NCBI GenBank assembly: GCA_963855995.1
Contig: OY979726.1
Coordinates: 8,408,701 to 8,472,700 of the forward strand
DNA: 64,000 nt
Direction of reading: 5' to 3'
DNA from: Muricea muricata
Lineage: Eukaryota > Cnidaria > Anthozoa > Malacalcyonacea > Plexauridae
A model generated the notes under the pieces. The model was not told the origin of the DNA, ran no database searches, and saw nothing but the letters and a program-made list of their open reading frames with translations. The position numbers and the translations under genes were made by a program. Below, piece after piece: positions 49,503-64,000 of this stretch (position 1 is the stretch's first letter; the number at the start of each line of letters is the position of its first letter).

Positions 49503-51268
49503 GATTTTGATGATTGTAAGAGCGTTTCTTTTCAGTCTCAATGATTGTTGTAGGTTTCTAATTTCAACATGCTATTTTGCTGATGTGGATAGTTTGACCG
49601 CCGAAAACATGATCAGCCTTGCTAAGTTCTAGAATTTCGATTTAGAAGCTGTCTTTTAGGTCCGCGATTGCAATATATCATTGGGCTCAACTCGTTCACT
49701 TTAGAACTCAAAACATCATTTTAAGCTCTAAAACGTCGGCGTGATCGATTTGAGACGGCAATTTTTAGTTGGCAGTCTTAGCATGTTTTTACGCTCAAAT
49801 CGCTTCCACAACGCCTAAAACGTGATTTTTATGATTGTAAGAGCGTTTCTTTTCAGTCTCAATGCATGTTGTAGGTTTCGTATTTCAACATGCTATTTTG
49901 CTGATGTCGATAGTTTGAGCGCCGAAAACATGATTGCGGACTTCCTATAAGTTCTCCAATTTCGATATAGAAGCTGTCTTTTAGGTACGCAATTGCAATA
50001 AATCATTGTGCTCAACTCGTTCTTTTTAGCACTCAAAACATCATTTTAAGCTCTAAAACGTCGCCGTGATCGATTTGAGACGGCAATTTTTAGTTCGCAG
50101 TCTGAGCATGTTTTTACGCTCAAATCGCTTCGAGAACGCCTAAAACGCGATTTTGATGATTGTAAGAGCGTTTCTTTTCAGTCTCAATGATTGTTGTAGG
50201 TTTCTAATTTCAACATGCTATTTTGCTGATGTGGATAGTTTGACCGCCGAAAACATGATCAGCCTTGCTAAGTTCTAGAATTTCGATTTAGAAGCTGTCT
50301 TTTAGGTCCGCGATTGCAATATATCATTGGGCTCAACTCGTTCACTTTAGAACTCAAAACATCATATTAAGCTCTAAAACGTCGGCGTGATCGATTTGAG
50401 ACGGCAATTTTTAGTTGGCAGTCTTAGCATGTTTTTACGCTCAAATCGCTTCCACAACGCCTAAAACGTGATTTTTATGATTGTAAGAGCGTTTCTTTTC
50501 AGTCTCAATGCATGTTGTAGGTTTCGTATTTCAACATGCTATTTTGCTGATGTCGATAGTTTGAGCGCCGAAAACATGATTGCGGACTTCCTATAAGTTC
50601 TCCAATTTCGATATAGAAGCTGTCTTTTAGGTACGCAATTGCAATAAATCATTGTGCTCAACTCGTTCTTTTTAGCACTCAAAACATCATTTTAAGCTCT
50701 AAAACGTCGCCGTGATCGATTTGAGACGGCAATTTTTAGTTCGCAGTCTGAGCATGTTTTTACGCTCAAATCGCTTCCAGAACGCCTAAAACGCGATTTT
50801 GATGATTGTAAGAGCGTTTCTTTTCAGTCTCAATGATTGTTGTAGGTTTCTAATTTCAACATGCTATTTTGCTGATGTGGATAGTTTGACCGCCGAAAAC
50901 ATGATCAGCCTTGCTAAGTTCTAGAATTTCGATTTAGAAGCTGTCTTTTAGGTCCGCGATTGCAATATATCATTGGGCTCAACTCGTTCACTTTAGAACT
51001 CAAAACATCATTTTAAGCTCTAAAACGTCGGCGTGATCGATTTGAGACGGCAATTTTTAGTTGGCAGTCTTAGCATGTTTTTACGCTCAAATCGCTTCCA
51101 CAACGCCTAAAACGTGATTTTTATGATTGTAAGAGCGTTTCTTTTCAGTCTCAATGCATGTTGTAGGTTTCGTATTTCAACATGCTATTTTGCTGATGTC
51201 GATAGTTTGAGCGGCTAAAACATGATTGCGGACTTCCTATAAGTTCTCCAATTTCGATTTAGAAGCTG
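49503..51268. repeat. Higher-order repeat, 2 monomers (646 bp), three copies
   Basis: Units start at 49503, 50149 and 50795, exactly 646 bp apart. Each holds one monomer with gatgtggatagtttgacc and one with gtttcgtatttc. The third copy is cut at 474 bp by the transposon. This dimer differs from the 5-monomer units elsewhere, so different stretches of the array amplify by different unit sizes. Confidence 0.8.
51263..51268. repeat. Target-site duplication, left (AAGCTG)
   Basis: AAGCTG belongs to the satellite (gatttagaagctgtctttt) and appears once on each side of the inserted element. Six bases is the duplication length known for Polinton/Maverick elements and for a few other superfamilies. 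Confidence 0.85.
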
Positions 51269-51386
51269 AGTAGGTATGGTGCAGGTATAGAACACTTACG
51301 TCAGCATTTTTTCAGGAGCTCTTACCCGTGTCAGTTAGTTACCAGGCTATGATGTGTATACCGTGGCGCGCGCATGTTGACCGGAA
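51269..51386 (+). repeat. Left terminal inverted repeat (118 bp)
   Basis: Starts agtaggtatggtgcagg and ends ccggaa. It pairs with the right end over 118 bp with two mismatches: base 5 (G against T), and gttgacc against gttaacc near the inner end. It contains cttacgtcag, a CRE-like core, and the GC-rich ggcgcgcgc. These could be binding or promoter sites, but that is inference only. Confidence 0.92.
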
Positions 51387-51407
51387 ATACCTGCGCTATG
51401 CGTCAGG

Positions 51408-51525
51408 TTTTGCTTGCAAAATGGCTTTTCAAGGTGATCTATTATTCGTTTACTCTTTAGTCTAATTTAGCAATTGCTACCGTGTAGACGTGTTTTTTGC
51501 TTGCAAAATGGCTTTTCAAAGTGAT
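51408..51525 (+). repeat. 31-bp direct repeat around a start codon, 87 bp apart
   Basis: Copy 1 at 51408-51438 and copy 2 at 51495-51525 match at 30 of 31 positions. Both contain tgcaaaATGGCTTTTCAA. The second ATG opens the 73-codon ORF. The first opens only 14 codons before a stop. The spacing is 29 codons, so both ATGs are in one frame, separated by that stop. Confidence 0.8.
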
Positions 51526-51729
51526 AACCTTAAGAAGATAGCACCAATGGACATAAGTCACGTAGAATTTTTTTTAAGTAATCGTCAAATAATGATTGAA
51601 GAAAAATTGTTGAAGTGTTACGCAGAGGAAACTGCATCCCGTGTCATGGTCTTAGTAACGGAATATAGCTCTAAAACGAAAACAATGAACTGCCAGACTT
51701 CACGTTACAAAATAATGCAGCGAAATTAA
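51508..51729 (+). CDS. Hypothetical 73-aa protein, left end of the element
   Basis: First ATG at 51508, stop TAA at 51727-51729; the open frame extends upstream to a GTG at 51490. The start lies about 120 bp inside the left terminus and reads inward. A poly(A) signal AATAAA stands at 51741-51746, 12 bases after the stop, which supports it as the last or only exon of a transcribed gene. The product starts MAFQSDNLKK, is mixed in charge with a basic C-terminal third, and shows no signal peptide, membrane segment or zinc motif. I do not recognise it. Its 3' end overlaps the opposite-strand frame that continues past the RING-like exon. It could be the first exon of a longer gene, or chance. Confidence 0.4.
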   Translation: MAFQSDNLKKIAPMDISHVEFFLSNRQIMIEEKLLKCYAEETASRVMVLVTEYSSKTKTMNCQTSRYKIMQRN

Positions 51730-51740
51730 TTATTCTTATG

Positions 51741-51746
51741 AATAAA
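51741..51746 (+). terminator. Poly(A) signal AATAAA
   Basis: Canonical hexamer just downstream of the stop of the 73-aa ORF. Confidence 0.45.
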
Positions 51747-51773
51747 ACAATATAGGTATATTCTAAGACTTGC

Positions 51774-51894
51774 CTGCATGTGGGGCAGAAAAATGTTTCG
51801 TTAAAATTAAGAATGAACTCTTGTAGTTCGTTAGCATGCAACACATGTCCGCATGCTGGTTTCATTATAAATTCATTACACAGGGAACATGTAT
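51774..51894 (-). CDS. RING-like zinc-finger exon (partial gene)
   Basis: Minus-strand open frame encoding a metal-binding pattern: C-x2-C (CSLC), eight residues, C-G-H-x2-H (CGHVLH), then 17 residues later C-x2-C (CPTC). That matches a RING or RING-related finger of ubiquitin ligases, but the position expected to hold the sixth ligand (after HAN) is Glu, so the site is incomplete. There is no ATG upstream in frame. Instead the frame is preceded by a pyrimidine-rich tract ending tcatattttag at 51895, a strong splice acceptor. A possible GC-type donor (CAG/GCAAGT) follows the last Cys at 51773. The inference is an internal exon of a spliced gene whose other exons I cannot place. A decayed fragment is equally possible. 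Chance is less likely, given the ordered Cys/His pairs. Confidence 0.5.
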
Positions 51895-52275
51895 CTAAAA
51901 TATGAGAAAAAAACAATGAGATTTTACTTTATGGTTAATAAATATTTTCCGTTTTTCCATATTTATGTTAATAATTTGTTCACGTATGTAGTTAGTTATA
52001 TACACAGTTTATTACAAATGATTGCATTTGCATGATGTGTCTAAAAGATAAAAAATGAAAGTGGACTTATAGAACTACAAATACAAGAAATGAAATAATT
52101 GATATTAAATGCTTACCAATTCGGCTTTCCATGTTGATCACTGTACGTTGTTGATTACTATATAGTCTTTGGGAGCCTTAGGTTATTTGATTGTGTTTGT
52201 ACTGCGGTCATGAATATATTAACCGTGTTATCTCTAGATTAGGTAAACTTCATTGTTGCTCAGTAGGCCCTACGG

Positions 52276-52635
52276 TTATGCTTGCTGTGATTATTGTGTT
52301 TATATTTCTAGTTATAGGTAGATTCCTTTCTTGCCGTAGGTTATGCGTTATTCAGTTCTTGCTGTGATTGTTGAGTTTATTTCAACTCCTATAGAGTAAA
52401 TAGATTCATTTTCAAGGTCAGGAAGATTCTTTTCTTTCTGTAGGTCATGCATTATTTTGTTCTTGCTGTGATTGCTGAGTTTATTTCAACTCCTACAGAG
52501 TATAGGTAGATTCCTTTCTTGCTGTAGGTCAAGCGTTGTTCGGTTCTTACTGTGATGATCGTCTTGTTTCAAGGTCAGGAAGATTCTTTTCTTTCTGTAG
52601 GTCATGCGTTATTTTGTTCTTGCTGTGGTTGTGCT
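52276..52635. repeat. Degenerate minisatellite in the element
   Basis: The phrase cttgctgtga or close variants recurs at 52281, 52358, 52462, 52546 and 52619, giving steps of 73-104 bp. Longer shared phrases include caaggtcaggaagattctt (about 52413 and 52570) and gtttatttcaactcct (about 52374 and 52479). Unit length varies because a block of about 20 bp is present or absent. Confidence 0.7.
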
Positions 52636-52867
52636 ATTTACAAAAATACATCAGCCAGGAGTCATTCTGCTTTCACGCAGTGGATCGTGGTTAGGTGTCG
52701 TTCTGTTTTTCATTGTACTAGACCAGTTAATGCTAATTAAATTTATTCGGGTTAGTTTGCGTTATGATTATTAGTGTACCCTGAAAATTTGGCGGGAAAT
52801 CCGTGCATATAAAAATAGTGGGTGTTTCATTGCGTCCACTGACAAGGAGGTTTTCGACCCTTTTTTT

Positions 52868-52940
52868 GTGGCGGATCGTGGCGTATTTGTGGCGGATCGT
52901 GGCGGATCTAATTATTATTCATGTATTTCTGTGGCAGATC
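52868..52940. repeat. Short GTGGCGGATC repeats
   Basis: GTGGCGGATC at 52868, 52889 and 52899, with variants gtggcgtatt at 52878 and gtggcagatc at 52931, followed by repeated aattattattcatgt. Function unknown; probably replication slippage. Confidence 0.65.
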
Positions 52941-53590
52941 AATTATTATTCATGTAATCAAGTAATAATTATTCATGCAATATGAATATTTAAAACGAGG
53001 ATAATTTATAGAGCATTTTTTTGTTATGCAAATTTGTTCTAGAAAGTTCTAAAAGGTTTCGATCTCGTGCAACGGAATTTCCCCACGATTGCACCATCAT
53101 GTCGAAATACTATTTGTTGCACTTACGTTCGGTCTAACGAGAAGGAGTAAATAAGTTTTATTGAAGATTGGACTGTACTCATATCATCTCATCGAAGTCT
53201 ATACAAGTTATCATAGTTTTCTGAGGCAATTTAATTGGGATAATTAAGAGAGGGTATGATCTCCATTCCACGCAGTGTTGTGTATTTTGTAACTGAGTTT
53301 GACACATTGAATTTTTAATAACACCATAGGGGGAATTAATAATTGTTGATGAAATGAGAAAAAATATGTGACATGAGAAAACAATATGTGGTGTAAGATG
53401 GTACTTAATTTGAACTGTGTGAAACTAATACATCGGACAACATGAGACGTAATGCGATAAATTTCCCCATTTAAAATGAACTTTTAGACAACAGCGACTT
53501 TTGCAAGGCTTTTACCAATGAAATGCCCACTTTGTATAACTTAAGAAATGTTTTTAATTTTTTTTGAACTGTTGAGCTACGGAAAAATAG

Positions 53591-53795
53591 TTTATGAGAT
53601 GAGCGGATGAGCACCTGCTCATATATAACTGCTCATGAGCACATGCTCATACGCTCATATGGTCCGATGTGACTCACCAGGTTAGTATGGCTATATTTTG
53701 TTAGTCTTATACAAGTTTATGCGATGAGCAGATGAGCACTTGCTCATAATTGCTCATGAGCACATGCTCATACGCTCATAAGGCCTGATGGCCCG
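53591..53795 (+). repeat. Internal inverted repeat, left arm, with TGAGCA palindromes
   Basis: Two tandem units of about 125 bp (starts 53591 and 53716), the second truncated. Each is packed with TGAGCA and its complement TGCTCA, arranged as palindromes such as gagcacctgctc, gagcacttgctc and tgctcatgagca. It matches the right arm at roughly 90 percent by eye, with a 4-bp length difference early in the arm. Dense palindromes of this kind suit binding of a dimeric protein. Confidence 0.8.
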
Positions 53796-53853
53796 ACAGT
53801 TATAACCCTCCCATGTATTAAAATAATACCAAACTCGGATATGTATATATAAT

Positions 53854-53859
53854 TTTATT
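53854..53859 (-). terminator. Poly(A) signal for the 163-aa gene
   Basis: AATAAA on the minus strand, about 29 bases past the stop of the 163-aa ORF, in an AT-rich tract. This is the usual place for a eukaryotic 3' end. Confidence 0.55.
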
Positions 53860-53887
53860 GAGAACAATATGAAAAATATTAATGTAG

Positions 53888-54379
53888 TTAATAATCTTTT
53901 TCATCATCACTGTCCTCAGTGAAACTGTAGTCTTTTAAATGTCTGTTAATAAGAAATTTTCTTTTATTGATAGCTGCTTCCATAGCCTCTTCTGGCTCAA
54001 AATCCTCATCATTCACGAATGCATCCTTTGTTTGCATTATTTTCTTATGCACGGGATCTTTCTTTAGTTGTTGTATCCATTGGAGACGCTGCAAATAGAT
54101 ACTTCTCAATTCCTTTTGTAGCTCAGGCAGAATATTAGAGTAAGCTGTTTCTCCAGCGGTTTTCTCATCCAGACCACTATGAGTCAAATTTATCTTCATT
54201 TCCTGAAAAGCCGCCTGATGCTTTTGCATCGCTTCTTCTACCATAGGCATCCAAGGATCCGCTTCTTCCTCTTCAGTTTCCGTCTCACTGTCTGTTGTCA
54301 TCGGACTTTCAGACCCGTGAGTTGCAACGCTCGAAGCATCATCCTCTGAGTCCACTGTCTGACTTTCCGTTTCTGACAT
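53888..54379 (-). CDS. Acidic/helical 163-aa protein of unknown function
   Basis: ATG at 54379, stop TAA at 53888-53890. Residues 1-41 are Ser/Thr/Glu/Asp-rich and low complexity (start MSETESQTVD, later ETETEEEEADPW), an acidic disordered tail. Residues 42-150 look alpha-helical and amphipathic, with many Gln, Lys and Met, ending in a short acidic tail. The same frame continues upstream through a C-x2-C-x12-H-x4-C zinc-finger pattern to a TGA at 54467-54469, so the native protein may have been a finger plus acidic plus helical protein now starting at an internal Met. A poly(A) signal follows. From memory, similar finger-acidic-helical proteins occur as multicopy genes in cnidarians and other invertebrates; I cannot verify this here and assign no function. 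It is the longest and best supported coding region in the window. Confidence 0.65.
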   Translation of the reverse strand: MSETESQTVDSEDDASSVATHGSESPMTTDSETETEEEEADPWMPMVEEAMQKHQAAFQEMKINLTHSGLDEKTAGETAYSNILPELQKELRSIYLQRLQWIQQLKKDPVHKKIMQTKDAFVNDEDFEPEEAMEAAINKRKFLINRHLKDYSFTEDSDDEKDY

Positions 54380-54403
54380 TTCTCTCTCTTCGCTTTTCAG
54401 CGG

Positions 54404-54469
54404 ACAATACTCTTTTTCGTGTCGACGTAGATTGAAACCACGATTAAATGTTTTCCCGCAAAATTTTCA
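54404..54469 (-). pseudogene. C2HC zinc-finger remnant in frame with the 163-aa ORF
   Basis: Reading upstream from the ATG, the frame stays open and shows Cys (54458-54460), GKTF, twelve residues, His (54419-54421), four residues, Cys (54404-54406): the classical finger spacing C-x12-H-x4-C with the usual Gly-Lys-Thr-Phe and Leu positions. The first Cys ligand should lie three codons before the visible Cys, and exactly there stands TGA. One base change from a Cys codon accounts for it. The likely reading is an inactivating substitution. Sequencing error, or recoding of TGA, are less likely alternatives. Confidence 0.6.
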
Positions 54470-54530
54470 GCTCATTCCGCTAGAACTGATTGTGTAGAAA
54501 TGCCTTGTCGTTGAGCAGCACTGTATTTTT

Positions 54531-54590
54531 GTGAGCATGTGAGCAAGTGCTCATAAGAAGTTATGAGCAGGTACTCAAATGTTGATAAGG
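54531..54590. repeat. Third, diverged TGAGCA cluster
   Basis: Contains gtgagcatgtgagcaagtgctcat and ttatgagcaggtactc, resembling half an arm unit in the right-arm orientation. It lies upstream of the 163-aa ORF, between it and the 104-aa ORF, where a promoter would be expected. Confidence 0.6.
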
Positions 54591-54805
54591 CCCTACCTGT
54601 TAGGTATTGACAGTTATGGCCTACGTATGTAGGTCCCAACTATTGGTATGGGCACTTGCTTATATGAGGTTGACCAGAGGTCGATGTGGGTCTATTTGGA
54701 GTCGATGTGACATCGATGTAGGGTGGATGTATTGAGGACATGCAAATAAAACGACGCCAACAGGTGTATATAGCCTTTATGTACTACAGCTATTTTTTAA
54801 AAGTT

Positions 54806-55120
54806 TCATAATGTTTGTTCTATTAATTCCTTCTCACAAACGTTTTGACAAATGTCATGTGCGACAGACAAGGCCAACTTCCTACATAACAAACTCTGGC
54901 ACAGCGTTCCCCAGTTGTTTCTAAGTCTTCTAATTTCTTTAAGGTTACGGCATGCATCGTCTACCATACTGTTTAACATCCAGGTTTGTACGTCAACCCT
55001 CCGTTTACGAAGGTATAAAGCAGTCCTCTTTTTCTTCAAATATGCAACTCTTTTTCTAGCCTCTGCCACAAGCTTGTTCAAGTCATGTAACCGCAAAAAG
55101 TTCTCCATTAAACTGGCCAT
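54806..55120 (-). CDS. Basic 104-aa hypothetical protein
   Basis: ATG at 55118-55120, stop at 54806-54808. The N-terminal half is strongly basic and helical (residues about 20-42 contain KKKR and RKRR), compatible with nucleic-acid binding or a nuclear localisation signal. The second half has four Cys without a clear metal-site spacing. Immediately before the ATG is gacttttag, which puts a stop in frame but also looks like a splice acceptor, so this could be an exon. It lies upstream of the 163-aa ORF on the same strand, separated by about 430 bp holding the diverged TGAGCA cluster. No poly(A) signal was seen close to its stop. No family recognised; may be non-functional. Confidence 0.35.
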   Translation of the reverse strand: MASLMENFLRLHDLNKLVAEARKRVAYLKKKRTALYLRKRRVDVQTWMLNSMVDDACRNLKEIRRLRNNWGTLCQSLLCRKLALSVAHDICQNVCEKELIEQTL

Positions 55121-55249
55121 CTAAAAGTCCTATCCCTGTGAAAGTTGCAAGCAGTATATGCTCTTATCGACTCAAATTTAACATTTTTTACTGTTGGTTG
55201 GATAACTGAAAACCAATCAGATTTAAAAATGGTATGTTTCATATGTGAC

Positions 55250-55460
55250 CGGGCCATCGGGCAACATTGGGCCTTATGAGCGTATGAGCATGTGTTCATG
55301 AGCAGTTATGAGCAGGTGCTCATCTGCTCATTACATAAACTTGTACAAGACTATCAAAATATAGCTACACTAACCTGGTGAGTCACATCAGGCCATATGA
55401 GCGTATGAGCAAGTGGTCGTGAGCAGTTATGAGCAGGTGCTCATCTGCTCATCGCGTAAA
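55250..55460 (-). repeat. Internal inverted repeat, right arm
   Basis: Reverse complement of the left arm, again two units, including ctcaccaggttag on the complementary strand and the TGAGCA/TGCTCA palindromes. The adjoining frame 55108-55299 starts in this arm and is not taken as a gene. Confidence 0.8.
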
Positions 55461-55464
55461 ATTG

Positions 55465-56575
55465 TACGGGACAGGAAATTGTAACAAGATGTAGCAATAC
55501 TAGTCTTAATACTTTACAAAATATAATATTCCAAATGCTAATCTGTGTGATCACTTACGCAACCGAAGAAACGTCTTTCCACCAATATTTTGCTCTAAAA
55601 AAGTATACATTTTTGCATTCGCTATATCCCCTTTATCTCCCTTCTGAAACTTTGTATTCAGCGTTGCAAAGCGATTATGTGCAGACATAAAACTAACTAG
55701 AAATACATGCATGCAGCAACCCCTCGCCACTAACTAAGAGCAACTGTATTTTCGGAATTACATGAAGTACTAATATAGGTTGTTGTCATAGCAACACGGC
55801 AATTGTTTTTTGTATTAATTTTTCAAAATGACAAAATATTGGGTTTTTAATCCTTGTTTTATTGAAAATTTTTTGAAATGGCACAACATTTGTCATCGGT
55901 ATGTTATTACGCCTAATGTAAGCTTAAATTTGGTATAAAATACGACCTACTAATTACATATATTAGACGTTTTTAAATATTTATGAAACTAAATTTTTAT
56001 CTACATAAACTTTGAGTTTGAAACAAAACCGTTTCAAGCCAATTTTGTATCTTCGCTCATATTCTTTTACATGTCAAGTTCGTCAATATTTTGAAATACA
56101 GTAATAAGAAGACAGTCTTGCATTTACAAAACATAAACTTACTCTGGAATTTAAGCACTAAACAGTGAATAGACTGGGGGAGTACGGCTACGCCGGCCTT
56201 TATAAAGCATTAAAACACAAGTATAAATACGCATTATCAACAAACTTGCCTTGTGTTTCACGCCGTAATCAATTCTTGGCGCTTCTCTGTATTTTCCCAG
56301 AATTAATCTCTCTTTAAGAGTCAATGACCACCCTTCGTTGGTTGTGAAAGTTGCCGAATCTTTTTGCAAAAATACAAAATATTGTAGTGCAAAAAGCAAA
56401 TTCAGATATTTGCTGTCAGTTGAATTCGTGATTAATCAATCAACAATAAATTTTAAATCTGGCCAATCAGTGTTAGCCATTCATGATAGTCCACCATATT
56501 GTTGAGATCAGTGAGGACATACCACTTTTACTACCTATCACGAGCAACGACTTTCAACTCCGCTAATACGAAATT
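55465..56575. other. Element interior without a supported gene
   Basis: AT-rich. The minus-strand frame at 56151-56399 has no ATG start (it opens with TTG) and no recognisable motif, so it is not called. Nothing else identified. Confidence 0.55.
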
Positions 56576-56583
56576 AGTAACCC

Positions 56584-56633
56584 TCGCCCCGGGCTTACGC
56601 CCGGAACGGCGCTTCGCGCCGTTGGCTCGGGGA
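56584..56633. repeat. GC-rich double hairpin
   Basis: Two adjacent perfect hairpins in an AT-rich setting: CCGGGC-TTAC-GCCCGG (56589-56604) directly followed by AACGGCGC-TTC-GCGCCGTT (56605-56623), then ggctcgggg, whose CGGGG could pair with the leading CCCCG. The form resembles the small mobile double-hairpin elements described from organelle genomes. Here it could be a tiny mobile insertion or a structured regulatory site. Confidence 0.75.
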
Positions 56634-56697
56634 TAATACTCTATTGACAAAGGGGTGAATCAAACTGATTGCTCTATATGTGTTATGAAGCCAATAA

Positions 56698-56922
56698 TTA
56701 AAAGAGAAAATTAAAAGCAGAATAATATTTAGAGTCCTTAGGCCAGCAGCTTTGATTACATAGGCTGGTAGGCGTACTTCCGTACGTACATCGAATGTGC
56801 ATCCCTGAACATGTACGTATCATAGCCCATTGCTCTTCTTCCTCGTTAAAGATAAAAATCTCAACAAGGAAATCTAATTGCTCATAATTCTCACATTCTT
56901 TTATCATTATTTTCAAATCCAT
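56698..56922 (-). CDS. Small 74-aa ORF, doubtful
   Basis: ATG at 56922, stop at 56698. The product starts MDLKIMIKE, has an acidic patch (NEEEEQW) and three Cys in the second half without a metal-binding pattern. No membrane segment, signal peptide or recognised family. It lies on the same strand as the other minus-strand ORFs, between the right-end ORF and the double hairpin. It may be an exon or chance; kept because it has a true ATG and the strand agrees with its neighbours. Confidence 0.2.
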   Translation of the reverse strand: MDLKIMIKECENYEQLDFLVEIFIFNEEEEQWAMIRTCSGMHIRCTYGSTPTSLCNQSCWPKDSKYYSAFNFLF

Positions 56923-57282
56923 GTCGTGCTCAATCGCTCTTAGATCAATATAACTGTCCTCGTCTGGAACAAGCTGACAAACTCTTATACGACCGACCTA
57001 GGGATTTTGACTGTCGTGTATATGAGACTGACATTTTCTTAATATCATAGTTAGAACTAATAAGCATAATAATAGAGCTTCATTTAAATACACTAGCATC
57101 AATAGCTTCAGAAATATCTGGCCTGCATGATATATGTGTTTAAAGAATACTACAAAATACATATGTAAAAATTATATCATTTTTTAAAAAGCGATTAGCT
57201 ATTTTCCATCCCTCCAATAGTACAAATAGTTCAGTATGCACTGAACGTCAAGGCCTTTCTCTAAATTATACAGTTCCTCTAA

Positions 57283-57660
57283 CTAATAAAGAAATAGAAG
57301 GTCTATATCCTCATCCTGTAATCCCTTGAAGTGTTCTTTCACACCACTACACCAAGCAATCTTCAATATTTTTGCCGCCTCAAGAAACGAGCCCCAAACT
57401 AGTTCGCTATTTTTCAAGCGTTTTACCGTTTCCACACCAAAGGTATGCCAAGATTCATCTACTGCACAATCACATGTTTCAAACAACTGCTTAATTTCAC
57501 TTGCTACAAAATCGGCAAAAATTGCTTCAAGCAACCGTAAAGGATCTCGCCAGTCAACATTTGTGTAATCCCTTTGTAGCAGCATGACTTTATAGAACAA
57601 CCTCAAATGTCTCTTGTTTGATAATATAACTTCCAAAAGTTTAGGCAAGTATACTGACAC
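57283..57660 (-). CDS. Helical 125-codon open frame at the right end, probably an exon
   Basis: Open from a GTG at 57660 to TAG at 57283-57285. The first ATG is at codon 26, leaving 100 residues from there. The frame opens 79 bp inside the right terminus and reads inward, the mirror position of the 73-aa ORF at the left. The translation looks like a real soluble globular protein: regular amphipathic helices, ordinary amino-acid mix, six Trp or Cys-rich spots (DWRDPLRLLEA, CDCAVDESWHTFG, ELVWGSFLEAAKILKIAW). The region before the frame offers possible acceptors, so it may be the last exon of a spliced gene. I do not recognise the family. An unplaced accessory protein of the element is the working view. 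Confidence 0.4.
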   Translation of the reverse strand: MSVYLPKLLEVILSNKRHLRLFYKVMLLQRDYTNVDWRDPLRLLEAIFADFVASEIKQLFETCDCAVDESWHTFGVETVKRLKNSELVWGSFLEAAKILKIAWCSGVKEHFKGLQDEDIDLLFLY

Positions 57661-57739
57661 ACTCTTGTGAGTTTAGCTAAATAGTGAACTTCGTAATTAA
57701 TATGACTCGTCTCAATGGTGTTCGCGGTAAAAACAGAAC

Positions 57740-57857
57740 TTCCGGTTAACATGCGCGCGCCACGGTATACACATCATAGCCTGGTAACTAACTGACACGG
57801 GTAAGAGCTCCTGAAAAAATGCTGACGTAAGTGTTCTATACCTGCACCATACATACT
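57740..57857 (-). repeat. Right terminal inverted repeat (118 bp)
   Basis: Reverse complement of the left terminus with two mismatches in 118. High identity argues that insertion is not ancient, in contrast to the absence of an intact transposition gene. Confidence 0.92.
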
Positions 57858-57863
57858 AAGCTG
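57858..57863. repeat. Target-site duplication, right (AAGCTG)
   Basis: Second copy of the 6-bp duplication. Removing the element plus one copy restores an ordinary satellite junction, tagaagctgtcttttag. Confidence 0.85.
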
Positions 57864-60800
57864 TCTTTTAGGTACGCGATTGCAATATATCATTGTGCTA
57901 AACTCGTTCTTTTTAGCACTCAAAAACTCATTTTAAGCTCTAAAACGTCGCCGTGATCGATTTGAGACGGATATTTTTAGTTGGAAGTCTGAGCATGTTT
58001 TTACGCTCAAATCGCTTCCAGAACGCCTAAAACGCGATTTTGATGATTGTAAGAACGTTTCTTTTCAGTCTCAAAGCATGTTGTAGGTTTCTCATTTCAA
58101 CATGCTATTTTGCTGATGTCGATAGTTTGAGCGCCGAAAACGTGATTGCGGACTTGCTAAGTTCTCCAATTTCGATTTAGAAGCTGTCTTTTAGGTCCGC
58201 GATTGCAATATATCATTGGGCTCAACTCGTTCATTTTAGCACTCAAAACATCATTTTAAGCTCTAAAACGTCGCCGTGATCGATTTGAGACGGCAATTTT
58301 TAGTTGGCAGTCCGAGCATGTTTTTACGCTCAAATCGCTTCCAGAACGCCTAAAACGAGATTTTGATGATTGTAAGAGCGTTTCTTTTCAGTCTCAATGA
58401 ATGTTGTAGGTTTCTCATTTCAACATGCTATTTTGCTGATGTCGGTAGTTTGAGCGCCGAAAACATGATTGCGGACTTGCTAAGTTCTCCAATTTCGATT
58501 TAGAAGCTGTCTTTTAGCTGCGCGATTGCAATATATCATTGGGCTCAACTCGTTCACTTTAGAACTCAAAACATCATTTTAAGCTCTAAAACGTCGGCGT
58601 GATCGATTTGAGACGGCAATTTTTAGTTGGCAGTCTGAGCATGTTTTTACGCTCAAATCCAGAACGCCTAAAACGCGATTTTGATGATTGTAAAAGCGTT
58701 TCTTTTCATTCTCAAAGCATGTTGTAGGTTTCTAATTTCAACATGCTATTTTGCTGACGTCGATAGTTTGAGCGCCGAAAACATCATTGCGGACTTCCTA
58801 TAAGTTCTGCAATTTCCATATAGAAGCTGTCTTTTAGGTCCGCGATTGCAATATATCATTGGGCTCAACTCGTTCACTTTAGCACTCAAACATCATTTTA
58901 AGCTCTAAAACGTCGCCTTGATCGATTTGAGAAGGCAATTTTTAGTTGGCAGTCTGAGCATCTTTTTACGCTCAAATCGCTTCCACAAAGCCTAAAACGC
59001 GATTTTGATGATTGTAAGAGCGTTTCTTTTCAGTCTCAATGCATTTTGTAGGTTTCTTATTTCAACATGCTATTTTGCTGATGTCGATAGTTTGAGCGCC
59101 GAAAACATCATTGCGGACTTCCTATAAGTTCTCCAATTTCGATATAGAAGCTGTCTTTTAGGTACGCGATTGCAATATATCATTGTGCTCAACTCGTTCT
59201 TTTTAGCACTCAAAACATCATTTTAAGCTCTAAAACGTCGCCGTGATCGATTTCAGACGGCAATTTTTAGTTGGCCGTCTGAGCATGTTTTTACGCTCAA
59301 ATCGCTTCAAGAACGCCTAAAAAGCGATTTTGATGATTGTAAGAGCGTTTCTTTTCAGTCTCAATGATTGTTGTAGGTTTCTAATTTCAACATGCTATTT
59401 TTCTGATGTCGATAGTTTGACCGCCGAAAACATGATAAGCCTTGCTAAGTTCTAGAATTTCGATTTAGAAGCTGTCTTTTAGGTCCGCGATTGCAATATA
59501 TCATTGGGCTCAACTCGTTCACTTTAGCACTCAAAACATCATTTTAAGCTCTAAAACGTCGCCATGATTGATTTCAGACGGCAATTTTTAGTTGGCAGTC
59601 TGAGTATGTTTTTACGCTCAAATCGCTTCCAGATCGCCTAAAACGCGATTTTGATGATTGTAAGAGCGTTTCTTTTCAGTCTGAAAGCATGTTGTACGTT
59701 TCTCATTTCAACATGCTATTTTGCTGATGTCGATAGTTTGAGCGCCAAAAACGTGATTGCGGACTTGCTAAGTTCTCCAATTTCGATTTAGAAGCTGTCT
59801 TTTAGGTCCGCGATTGCAATATATCATTGGGCTCAACTCGTTCATTTTAGCACTCAAAACATCATTTTAAGCTCTAAAACGTCGCCGTGATCGATTTGAG
59901 ACGGCAATTTTTAGTTGGCAGTCCGAGCATGTTTTTACGCTCAAATCGCTTCCAGAACGCCTAAAACGAGATTTTGATGATTGTAAGAGCGTTTCTTTTC
60001 AGTCTCAATGAATGTTGTAGGTTTCTCATTTCAACATTCTATTTTGCTGATGTCGGTAGTTTGAGCGCCGAAAACATGATTGCGGACTTGCTAAGTTCTC
60101 CAATTTCGATTTAGAAGCTGTCTTTTAGCTGCGCGATTGCAATATATCATTGGGCTCAACTCGTTCACTTTAGAACTCAAAACATCATTTTAAGCTCTAA
60201 AACGTCGGCGTGATCGATTTGAGACGGCAATTTTTAGTTGGCAGTCTGAGTATGTTTTTACGCTCAAATCGCTTCCAGATCGCTTAAAACGCGATTTTGA
60301 TGATTGTAAGAGCGTTTCTTTTCAGTCTCAATGAATGTTGTAGGTTTCTCATTTCAACATGCTATTTTGCTGATGTCGGTAGTTTGAGCGCCGAAAACAT
60401 GATTGCGGACATGCTAAGTTCTAGAATTTCGATTTAGAAGATGTCTTTTAGGTACGCGATTGCAATATATTAATGTGCTCAACTCGTTCATTTTAGCACT
60501 CAAAAAATCATTTTAAGCTATAAAACGTCGCCGTGATCGATTTGAGACGGCAATTTTTAGTTGGCAGTCTGAGCATGTTTTTACGCTCAAATCCAGAACG
60601 CCTAAAACATAATTTTGATGATTGTAAAAGCGTTTCTTTTCATTCTCAAAGCATGTTGTAGCTTTCTAATTTCAACATGCTATTTTGCTGACGTCGATAG
60701 TTTGAGCGCCGAAAACATGATTGCGGACTTCTTATAAGTTCTGCTATTTCGTTATAGAAGCTGTCTTTTAGGGCCGCGATTGCAATATATCATTGGGCTC

Positions 60801-63800
60801 AACTCGTTCACTTTAGAACTCAAAACATCATTTTAAGCTCTAAAACGTCGCCGTGATCGATTTGAGACGGCAATTTTTAGTTGGCAGTCTGAGTATGTTT
60901 TTACGCTCAAATCGCTTCCACAAAGCCTAAAACGCGATTTTGATGATTGTAAGAGCGTTTCTTTTCAGTCTCAATGCATGTTGTAGGTTTCTTATTTCAA
61001 CATGTTTTTTTCTGATGTCGATAGTTTGAGCGCCGAAAACATGATTGCTGACTTCCTATAAGTTCTCCAATTTAAATATAGAAGCTGTCTTTTAGGTACG
61101 CGATTGCAATATATCATTGTGCTCAACTCGTTCTTTTTAGCACTCAAAAACTCATTTTAAGCTCTAAAACGTCGCCGTGATCGATTTGAGACGGATATTT
61201 TTAGTTGGCAGTCTGAGCATGTTTTTACGCTCAAATCGCTTCAAGAACGCCTAAAACGCGATTTTGATGATTGTAAGAACGTTTCTTTTTAGTCTCAAAG
61301 CATGTTGTAGGTTTCTAATTTCAACATGCTATTTTGCTCATGTCGATAGTTTGAGCGCCGAAAACGTGATTGCGGACTTGCTAAGTTCTCCAATTTCGAT
61401 TTAGAAGCTGTCTTTTAGGTCCGCGATTGCAATATATCATTGGGCTCAACTGGTATATTTTAGTACTCGAAACATCATTTTAAGCTCTAAAACGTCGCCG
61501 TGATCGATTTGAGACGGCAATTTTTAGTTGGCAGTATGAGCATCTTTTTACGCTCAAATCGCGTCCAGAACGCCTAAAACGCGATTTTGATTATTGTAAG
61601 AGCGTTTCTTTTCAGTTTCAAAGCAGGTTGTAGGTTTCTCATTTCAACATGCTATTTTGCTGATGTCGATAGTTTGAGCGCAGAAAACATGATTTCGGAC
61701 TTCCTATAAGTTCTCCAATTTCGATTTAGAAGCTGTCTTTTAGGTCCGCGATTGCAATATTTCATTGGGCTCAACTCGTTCATTTTAGCACTCGAAACAT
61801 CATTTTAAGCTCTAAAACGTCGCCGTGATCGATTTGAGACGGCAATTTTTAGTTGGCAGTCTGAGCATGTTTTTACGCTCAAATTGCTTCCAGAACGCCT
61901 AAAACGCGATTTTGATTATTGTAAGAGCGTTTCTTTTCAGTTTCGAAGCAGGTTGTAGGGTTCTTATTTCAACATGCTATTTTGCTGACGTCGATAGTTT
62001 GAGCGCCGAAAACATGATTGCGGACTTCCTATAAGCTCTGCAATTTCGATATAGAAGCTGTCTTTTAGGTCCGCGATTGCAATATATCATTGGGCTCAAC
62101 TCGTTCACTTTAGCACTCAAAAACTTATTTTAAGCTCTAAAACGTCGCCGTGATCGATTTGAGAAGGCAATTTTTAGTTGGCAGTCTGAGCATCTTTTTA
62201 CGCTCAAATCGCTTCCAGAACGCCTAAAACGCGATTTTGATTATTGTAAGAGCGTTTCTTTTCAGTTTAAAAGCAGGTTGTAGGTTTCTCATTTCAACAT
62301 GCTATTTTGCTGATGTCGATAGTTTGACCGCCGAAAACAAGATTGCGGACTTTCTAAGTTCTCCAATTTCGATTTAAGAGCTGTCTATTAGGTCCGCGAT
62401 TGCAATATATCATTGGGCTTAACTCGTTCACTTTAGCACTCAAAACATCATTTTAAGCTCTAAAACGTCACCGTGATCGATTTGAGAAGGCAATTTTTAG
62501 TGTGCAGTCTGAGCATGTTTTTACGCTTAAATCGCTTCAAGAACGCCTAAAACGCGATTTTGATGATTGTAACAGCGTTTCTTTCCCGTTTCAAAGCAGG
62601 TTGTGGGGTTCTCATTACAACATGCTATTTTGCTGATGTCGATAGTTTGAGCGCCGAAACATGATTGCGGACTTCCTATAAGTTCTCCAATTTCGATATA
62701 GAAGCTGTCTTTTAGGTACGCGATTGCAATATATCATTGTGCTCTACTCGTTCTTTTTAACACTCAAAACATAATTTTAAGCTCTAAAACGTAGCCGTGG
62801 TCGATTTGAGACGGAAATTTTTAGTTGGCAGTCTGATTATGTTTTACGCTCAAATCGCTTCCAGAACGCCTAAAACGCGATTTTGATGATTGTAAGAGCG
62901 TTTCTTTTCAGTCTCAATGATTGCTGTAGGTTTCTCATTTCAACATGCTATTTTGCTGATGTCGATAGTTTGACCGCCGAAAACATGATCAGACTTGCTA
63001 AGTTCTCCAATTTCGATTTAGAAGTTTTCTTTTAGGACCGCGATTGCAATATATCATTGTGCTCAAGTCGTTCTTTTTAGCACTCAAAACATCATTTTAA
63101 GCTCTAAAACGTCGCCGTGATCGATTTGAGACGGATATTTTTAGTTGGCAGTCTGAGCATGTTTTTACGCTCAAATCGCTTCCAGATCGCCTAAACGCGA
63201 TTTTGATGATTGTAAGAAGGTTTCTTTTCAGTCTGAAAGCATGTTGTAGGTTTCTCATTTCAACATGCTATTTTGCTGATGTCGATAGTTTGAGCGCCGA
63301 AAACGTGATTGCAGACTTGCTAAGTTCTCCAATTTCGATTTAGAAGCTGTCTTTTAGGTACGCGATTTCAATATATTATTGTGCTCAACTCGTTCATTTT
63401 AGCACTCAAAACATCATTTTAAGCTATAAAACGTGTCCGTGATCGATTTGAGACGGCAATTTTTAGTTGGCAGTCTGAGCATGTTTTTACGCTCAAATCG
63501 CTTCCAGAACGCCGAAAACGCGATTTTGATTATTGTAAGAGCGTCTCTTTTAGGTTTCAAAGCAGGTTGTAGGTTTCTCATTTCAACATGCTATTTTGCT
63601 GATGTCGATTGTTTCAGCGCCGAAAACATGATTGCGGACTTGCTAAGTTCTCCAATTTCGATTTAGAAGCTATCTTTTGGGTACGCGATTGCAATATATC
63701 ATTGTGCTCAACTCGTTCTTTTTAGCACTCAAAACATCATTTTAAGCTCTAAAACGTCGCCGTGATCGATTTGAGACGGCAATTCTTAGTTGGCAGTCTG

Positions 63801-64000
63801 AGCATGTTTTTACGCTCAAATCGATTCCAGAACGCCTAAAACGCGATTTTGATGATTGTAAGAGCGTTTCTTTTCAGTCTCAATGATTGTTGTAGGTTTC
63901 TCATTTCAACATGCTATTTTGTTGATGTCGGTAGCTTGAGGGCCGAAAACATGATTGCGGACATGCTAAGTTCTAGAATTTCGATTTAGAAGATGTCTTT
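57858..64000. repeat. Satellite array, right part (same family)
   Basis: The array resumes in the same phase and orientation after the transposon, starting inside a monomer at AAGCTG, and runs off the window end. About 19 monomers by length. From about 62.3 kb the monomers carry more private changes (for example near 62581-62605, 62377-62393 and 63604-63630) than those in the left part. Two monomers here (near 58657 and 60591) lack 5 bp, reading aaatccagaacg where others read aaatcgcttccagaacg; I did not see this variant in the left array. Confidence 0.97.

Follow-up and report, generated by a model that had tools for sequence, protein, structure and literature searches.

In a 64,000-nucleotide stretch of the Muricea muricata genome (contig OY979726.1, positions 8,408,701 to 8,472,700 of the forward strand; hereafter the window, whose numbering is used below), we analyzed a 6,589-bp element at positions 51269-57857 that we identify, with a probability of roughly 0.92, as a non-autonomous Polinton/Maverick: it has its ends and target-site duplication (TSD) in common with full-length Polintons of this genome, has lost the core genes, is chimeric in composition, and is one of a set of compact elements that multiply. 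The element starts with AGTAGGTATGG, ends with CATACATACT, and so has AG...CT ends. Its boundaries are as follows.

51263..51268, no strand: left copy of the TSD AAGCTG (sequence reading, satellite empty sites, Tandem Repeats Finder)
51269..51386, + strand: left terminal inverted repeat, AG..., 118 bp (inverted-repeat comparison; genome matches 99-100%)
57740..57857, - strand: right terminal inverted repeat, ...CT, 118 bp, with two mismatches against the left one (inverted-repeat comparison)
57858..57863, no strand: right copy of the TSD AAGCTG (sequence reading, satellite empty sites, Tandem Repeats Finder)

If part of the TSD is counted in, the two arms run from 51264 to 51386 and from 57740 to 57862, with 98% complementarity. 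A 323-bp satellite array (21-51268 and 57858-64000; ~177 copies, 91% matches) fills almost all of the window and is interrupted by the element, stopping at 51268 and resuming at 57858 according to Tandem Repeats Finder. The flank joined across the element reads ...TTTAG-AAGCTG-TCTTTTAGG..., and this uninterrupted sequence with a single AAGCTG is present in array units throughout the window when up to four substitutions are allowed. These units are natural empty sites, and the 6-bp duplication is therefore demonstrated within the window itself. The original prediction, made from the letters of the window, had described the AG...CT ends, the 118-bp repeats with two mismatches and the 6-bp AAGCTG, all of which are confirmed.

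Polintons end in long terminal inverted repeats of the form AG...CT. Their TSD is 6 bp, as given in PMC10045372. We searched the 453-Mb genome with the 118-bp terminus (type A) and scored the best 40 of 221 candidates. All 40 were 99-100% identical, and 26 of them, paired by eye, formed 13 inverted pairs 12.4-17.0 kb apart, which excludes a chance origin of the ends; the remaining 14, which include the window and four compact copies, were unpaired within the list and left out. Inside all 13 listed long pairs lie PolB (polymerase B) and a capsid-type gene, and inside 11 of the 13 a listed integrase. In eight pieces (L033-L040), each from a different long copy, Pfam identified polymerase B as PF03175, an integrase with rve and chromo domains, and GRF zinc fingers, and the protease resembles S273R (E 3e-4). 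The ATPase, capsid and penton labels of long-copy open reading frames (ORFs) are our assumption from the look of the sequence; the capsid-type and ATPase-type ORFs had no significant match in Pfam and PDB sequence searches, and in PHROGs the sole match, a weak one, linked the ATPase-type ORF with a family of terminases (E 0.012). The genome as a whole carries a very large Polinton load, with 82 scored of 502 polymerase candidates, 112 scored of 1,371 integrase candidates, and several lineages with open frames. Longer relatives with the same ends, which the original prediction had proposed to look for, thus exist, with genes for PolB (PF03175), for an integrase of the rve-chromodomain kind and for a capsid-type protein, and its Polinton/Maverick reading of the ends is borne out by these shared termini.

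The interior of the window element is a chimera of a polymerase-side Polinton end, a central cassette and a right-hand module, with the following features.

51269..52843 (element 1-1575), + strand: polymerase-side end derived from a 17-kb autonomous Polinton (main pieces 77-96% identical to L033)
51490..51729, + strand: truncated 79-aa copy of the autonomous element's 148-aa gene (tblastn, 92-95% over 59 aa; L033/L037/L039/L040)
51671..51916, - strand: RING-like ORF of 81 aa, common to the autonomous element (PF13639, E 8.7e-4; 78-86% to long copies)
53589..55468, - strand: central cassette, zinc-finger gene and ORF104 within TGAGCA inverted-repeat arms (copy comparison, inverted-repeat search)
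53625..53790, + strand: left cassette arm of 166 nt with repeated TGAGCA/TGCTCA palindromes; complementarity with the right arm 90%
53888..54538, - strand: gene with C2H2 zinc-finger, acidic and helical parts, which encodes 216 aa elsewhere (copy comparison)
54806..55120, - strand: ORF104, second cassette ORF and a doubtful gene, its frame poorly maintained among copies
55265..55430, - strand: right cassette arm (inverted-repeat search)
55697..56633, no strand: 937-bp stretch of the window copy, replaced by 5 bp at the same place in four compact sister copies
57202..57660, - strand: remnant of a 153-aa helical ORF with one in-frame TAG, listed as a 125-aa ORF at 57283-57660 (comparison with sister copies)

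The PolB, integrase, ATPase, protease and capsid proteins of the long copies had no tblastn match in the element at E 0.01; among 18 predicted long-copy proteins, matches came only from the 148-aa protein and a 146-aa relative. Pfam scans of the 12 element ORFs of at least 60 aa gave no match above the cut-off and no transposase, the RING-like ORF scoring 20 bits against a curated cut-off of 27.3. On the right side, the match to the long-copy pieces is confined to the terminal 118-134 bp. The 153-aa ORF, which has its intact length in sister copies, occurs at ten places at 87-100% identity, counting the window and the query, and most other matches are at 26-38%. Relatives of it lie near core genes of other Polintons, for example near capsid genes (coordinates C1:89490311 by C1:89494739, C1:24183171 by C1:24177850) and near PolB (C5:11850331 by C5:11847263, C1:104651181 by C1:104653765), these four being examples and not a count. 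The statement in the original prediction that the element holds none of the Polinton genes is therefore correct for the core genes and incorrect for the left 1.6 kb, whose small ORFs derive from an autonomous Polinton, and for the right-hand ORF family. A Bcl-2-like identity considered for the 153-aa ORF was unsupported; the 125-aa ORF of the window, modelled from a single sequence, had a mean pLDDT (predicted local distance difference test score) of 57.5.

We examined 20 loci that contain the cassette for complete elements, requiring AG...CT ends and seeking repeats 4-8 bp long at a distance of at most 6 bp from the ends. A complete terminus pair was found at seven loci, all seven with AG...CT ends and a 6-bp TSD; the stretches examined at the other 13 held no complete pair. 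Thus the TSD is 6 bp in the window and at all seven loci, where another length would have spoken against the Polinton reading. Four of the seven have, like the window, type-A ends (L013 ATGCGG, L014 ACCGTT, L015 TTTGAG, L017 GTGATG), and three have a second terminus, type B (L022 GATAAG, L024 GCTGGT, L025 TACATT), which starts AGTAGAAT... and is about 76-82% like type A. The four type-A copies are mutually 99.1-99.6% identical over their aligned length and ~95% identical to the window copy. Since these near-identical copies have four different TSDs and distinct flanks, the compact form multiplies as such, and the family of the window element represents several insertions in compact form and no one-off deletion.

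Type-B ends also bound long elements. When 28 of 40 type-B terminus matches were paired by eye and the others excluded, 11 listed long pairs were obtained, eight with PolB, nine with capsid, nine with integrase, and two with none of these. The compact type-A elements retain 2.4 kb of the polymerase-side end. In the compact type-B elements L022 and L025, the retained part measures 2.4-3.5 kb and is an 84-86% match to the integrase-side end of family A (with type-A long copies as the reference). One cassette is thus carried on two chassis that retain opposite Polinton ends. In L024, the same end is found at both sides, and its inverted arms measure 593 bp (97.8% identity) and 1,477 bp (99.8%).

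The 216-aa protein of the cassette has a C2H2 finger at residues 22-44, followed by acidic and helical parts; its best PDB match has an E-value of 4.5e-7, and its Pfam zf-C2H2 score of 18.7 bits lies under the cut-off of 25.2. The model of the 163-aa ORF that remains in the window copy (pLDDT 72) had no PDB match at E 0.001, and no relative of the zinc-finger protein was found in viral_contigs. In the genome, we scored 150 places of 794 candidates for this gene. Of the top 50 by score, 41 are free of internal stops, although the ranking is tilted toward open frames. Deep lineages of the gene are at 56-86% protein identity, and the most distant listed homologues (56-57%) each have one or two stops. 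ORF104 was dropped as a firm gene, as its indels (32 in 9.5 kb) are near those of the adjacent spacer (41 in 8.4 kb).

The zinc-finger gene and the core Polinton genes keep apart in the lists that we compared (at least 96 PolB places with rows of one gene merged, 95 capsid, 112 integrase with second fragments merged, and the 150 zinc-finger places). None of the 24 listed long pairs contains the zinc-finger gene, and all three listed type-B pairs shorter than 9 kb, which were found by their ends, contain it and no listed core gene. Listed PolB lies within 10 kb of 53 of the 95 capsid genes and of none of the 150 zinc-finger places. Of the 20 cassette loci, 18 match a Polinton-type protein (some weakly, at 26-36%), and of the remaining two, L024 has termini and L027 only flanks common to type-B loci. 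As a separate observation, the span ~C1:25747940-25775062 (cassette locus L032 and beyond) has a type-B-like terminus on one side, a type-B terminus on the other, and oppositely oriented PolB copies, and it is possibly a palindromic or composite Polinton.

The gene is intact by our criteria in 18 of 39 copies and not intact in 21. The zinc-finger ORF has 27 indels in 26.3 kb and the adjacent spacer 41 in 8.4 kb, a density about 5 times lower in the ORF; multiples of three make up a larger share of the indels in the gene (11/27 versus 6/41, p 0.016). These counts are biased in that the copies were chosen by similarity to the zinc-finger ORF; in the first 160 bp of the gene, outside the query, one of eight indels is a multiple of three. 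Substitution rates are alike in the gene (0.050) and the spacer (0.052), and the indels alone hint at constraint on the gene.

We therefore regard the window element as a non-autonomous Polinton/Maverick that probably moves with borrowed machinery: because its ends are common to the long copies, we infer that polymerase and integrase act on it in trans. Protein-primed replication of the compact element, starting at the inverted repeats, would be carried out by the polymerase B of the long copies, and insertion with a 6-bp stagger by the rve integrase that they encode. Compact elements may arise when Polinton ends join around the cassette during replication, possibly through template switching or snapback, for which the subgenomic particles of adeno-associated virus (AAV) in PMC8235507 provide an analogy only; such joining would account for the compact copies that have one and the same end at left and right. 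In the weakest step, the zinc-finger protein might bind the TGAGCA palindromes or the termini and favour the short element over its helper. Polintons are widely regarded as endogenous viruses, and a tentative extension, which we hold at well under even odds, is that the compact elements are true Polinton satellites, that is, hereditary parasites of endogenous animal viruses. The zinc-finger cassette with its palindromic arms would then take the termini of several families, each in turn replicating and integrating it, with its protein acting on the TGAGCA palindromes or the helper termini.

Several observations weigh against these interpretations. The window copy of the zinc-finger gene is broken by one in-frame TGA, which leaves the 163-aa ORF at 53888-54379. 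For 17 distinct intact copies, the ratio of nonsynonymous to synonymous substitutions (omega, dN/dS) cannot be told apart from 1, either on the internal branches (~0.80, p 0.21) or on the terminal ones (1.04, p 0.61); a first Nei-Gojobori ratio of 0.56 (median 0.53) had overstated constraint, transition weighting on the tree giving the values above. Five compact type-A elements contain the zinc-finger gene, but they were located through the cassette, so its presence in them is not independent evidence, and since 14 of 40 type-A and 12 of 40 type-B terminus matches are unpaired, compact elements that lack the cassette may exist. The separation from core genes is also incomplete. With a PolB list seeded by L032, three of the 150 zinc-finger places have listed PolB within 10 kb, and at that distance a capsid gene lies at one of the 150 listed places and an integrase at three; among the 20 cassette loci, integrase remnants are present at L025 (one of the compact type-B elements), L028 and L030, and PolB-type sequence at L032.

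The original prediction had left two alternatives, a non-autonomous family mobilised in trans and an undescribed superfamily with its own small genes. Our results support the former, its "in trans" part by the reasoning from shared ends, and dispose of the latter. A superfamily of that kind, or an element of the IS3EU, Dada or Ginger type, with a small transposase and convergent Polinton-like ends, would fit an interior without a core Polinton gene and 12 ORFs without a Pfam match above the cut-off, but 13 elements in which PolB and a capsid-type gene are present terminate in the same 118-bp ends (99-100%), and the left part of the window element matches these at 77-96% in its main pieces, which leaves this explanation with next to no credence. 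For IS3EU and Dada, the Pfam scans of the 12 ORFs gave no transposase, in a genome not itself searched for these transposases, and 13 of 13 listed long pairs with these ends have PolB and a capsid-type gene. Ginger1 and Ginger2 were rejected on the AG...CT termini and the 6-bp TSD, the Ginger elements having TGTNR ends and TSDs of 4-5 bp according to PMC2836005 and PMC10045372.

The cassette may be a passenger without a role, and the element an ordinary product of deletion, copied in trans after a Polinton had lost its middle part; we put the odds of this at about even: dN/dS is not separable from 1, more than half of the copies are not intact and the window copy is broken, whereas the same cassette stands on two chassis with opposite ends kept, the indels are rarer in the ORF than in the spacer (subject to the bias from copy choice), and a search of the eight long type-A pieces did not find the cassette, which is therefore not leftover type-A sequence. 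Alternatively, the cassette may be an accessory region of an unsampled autonomous Polinton lineage, with the compact elements as deletion products of that lineage. PolB lies within 10 kb of the gene at two loci (C1:25750473; C1:32104344/32105165), the PolB-type sequence of L032 starts ~1.7 kb from the cassette, and the interior of long type B was examined by coordinates only. However, a listed PolB is missing from the 10-kb surroundings of 147 of the 150 places, as opposed to the 53 of 95 capsid genes that have one, and the oppositely oriented PolB copies mean that the L032 span is possibly composite; we find this origin rather doubtful. Quite unlikely, in our estimate, is that the cassette is an independent foldback-like transposon repeatedly inserted into Polinton derivatives. 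It is bounded by inverted repeats, its copy number is very large (see the scored and candidate places above), and in all nine zinc-finger gene pairs that lie 0.7-2.7 kb apart the two copies face opposite ways, divergently in eight pairs and convergently in one (C1:13118478, C1:13336107, C1:30854510, C1:32104344, C2:14948858, C2:17899850, C2:27219860, C3:26908276, C12:1477171). Against this, the cassette edges of nine copies, inspected by eye, have no constant boundary or target duplication, the end point of homology varies between contexts, and the great majority of the loci match a Polinton-type protein.

Among known systems, the non-autonomous Polinton of the window shares its termini, AG...CT ends, 6-bp TSD and 1.6-kb left end with Polinton/Maverick elements (Polintoviricetes; adintoviruses in animals), but is without their polymerase, integrase, ATPase, protease and capsid, and its cassette was not found in the sampled long type-A copies. 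Like non-autonomous, trans-mobilised derivatives of DNA transposons that resemble miniature inverted-repeat transposable elements (MITEs), it has kept the ends and lost the enzymes, and short units have been amplified with their own duplications. MITEs usually carry no gene, whereas here a gene is carried, intact in part of the copies and common to families with different termini. AAV is not known to use protein-primed replication. Snapback and deletion (defective interfering) genomes of viruses with terminal repeats, such as those of AAV in PMC8235507, resemble L024 in having the same end on both sides and an inverted duplication; the compact elements differ from the genomes described there in being integrated and heritable and in having a common extra cassette. 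With virophages and other satellites, the likeness would be dependence on the machinery of another element, which is deduced here, and the difference is that the window element itself encodes neither a capsid nor an ATPase nor a polymerase. In open-licence PMC, no paper on non-autonomous, defective, miniature, short or satellite Polintons was found by exact phrase, a search that did not cover Repbase, which may hold entries. Here one genome contains helper and dependent families that have their termini in common and copies that hardly differ, so that tests of trans-mobilisation, of end recognition and of how symmetric short genomes originate become possible, and if the cassette were under selection, this would be a satellite system of an animal virus-like transposon.

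Some further details concern individual compact and cassette-bearing copies. The compact type-A copy L015 seems to sit in a related repeat as well, its flanks being judged by eye. The compact type-B copy L022 contains a 231-aa ORF (L022:5155-5850) with no Pfam match above the cut-off, which from a look at its sequence we take to resemble the end of a reverse transcriptase protein of the non-long-terminal-repeat class, and which is probably a nested insertion. At four C1 loci (94.62, 94.68, 95.23 and 96.03 Mb), the zinc-finger gene is flanked by inverted, distant relatives of the 153-aa ORF, at 31-33% and most with stops.

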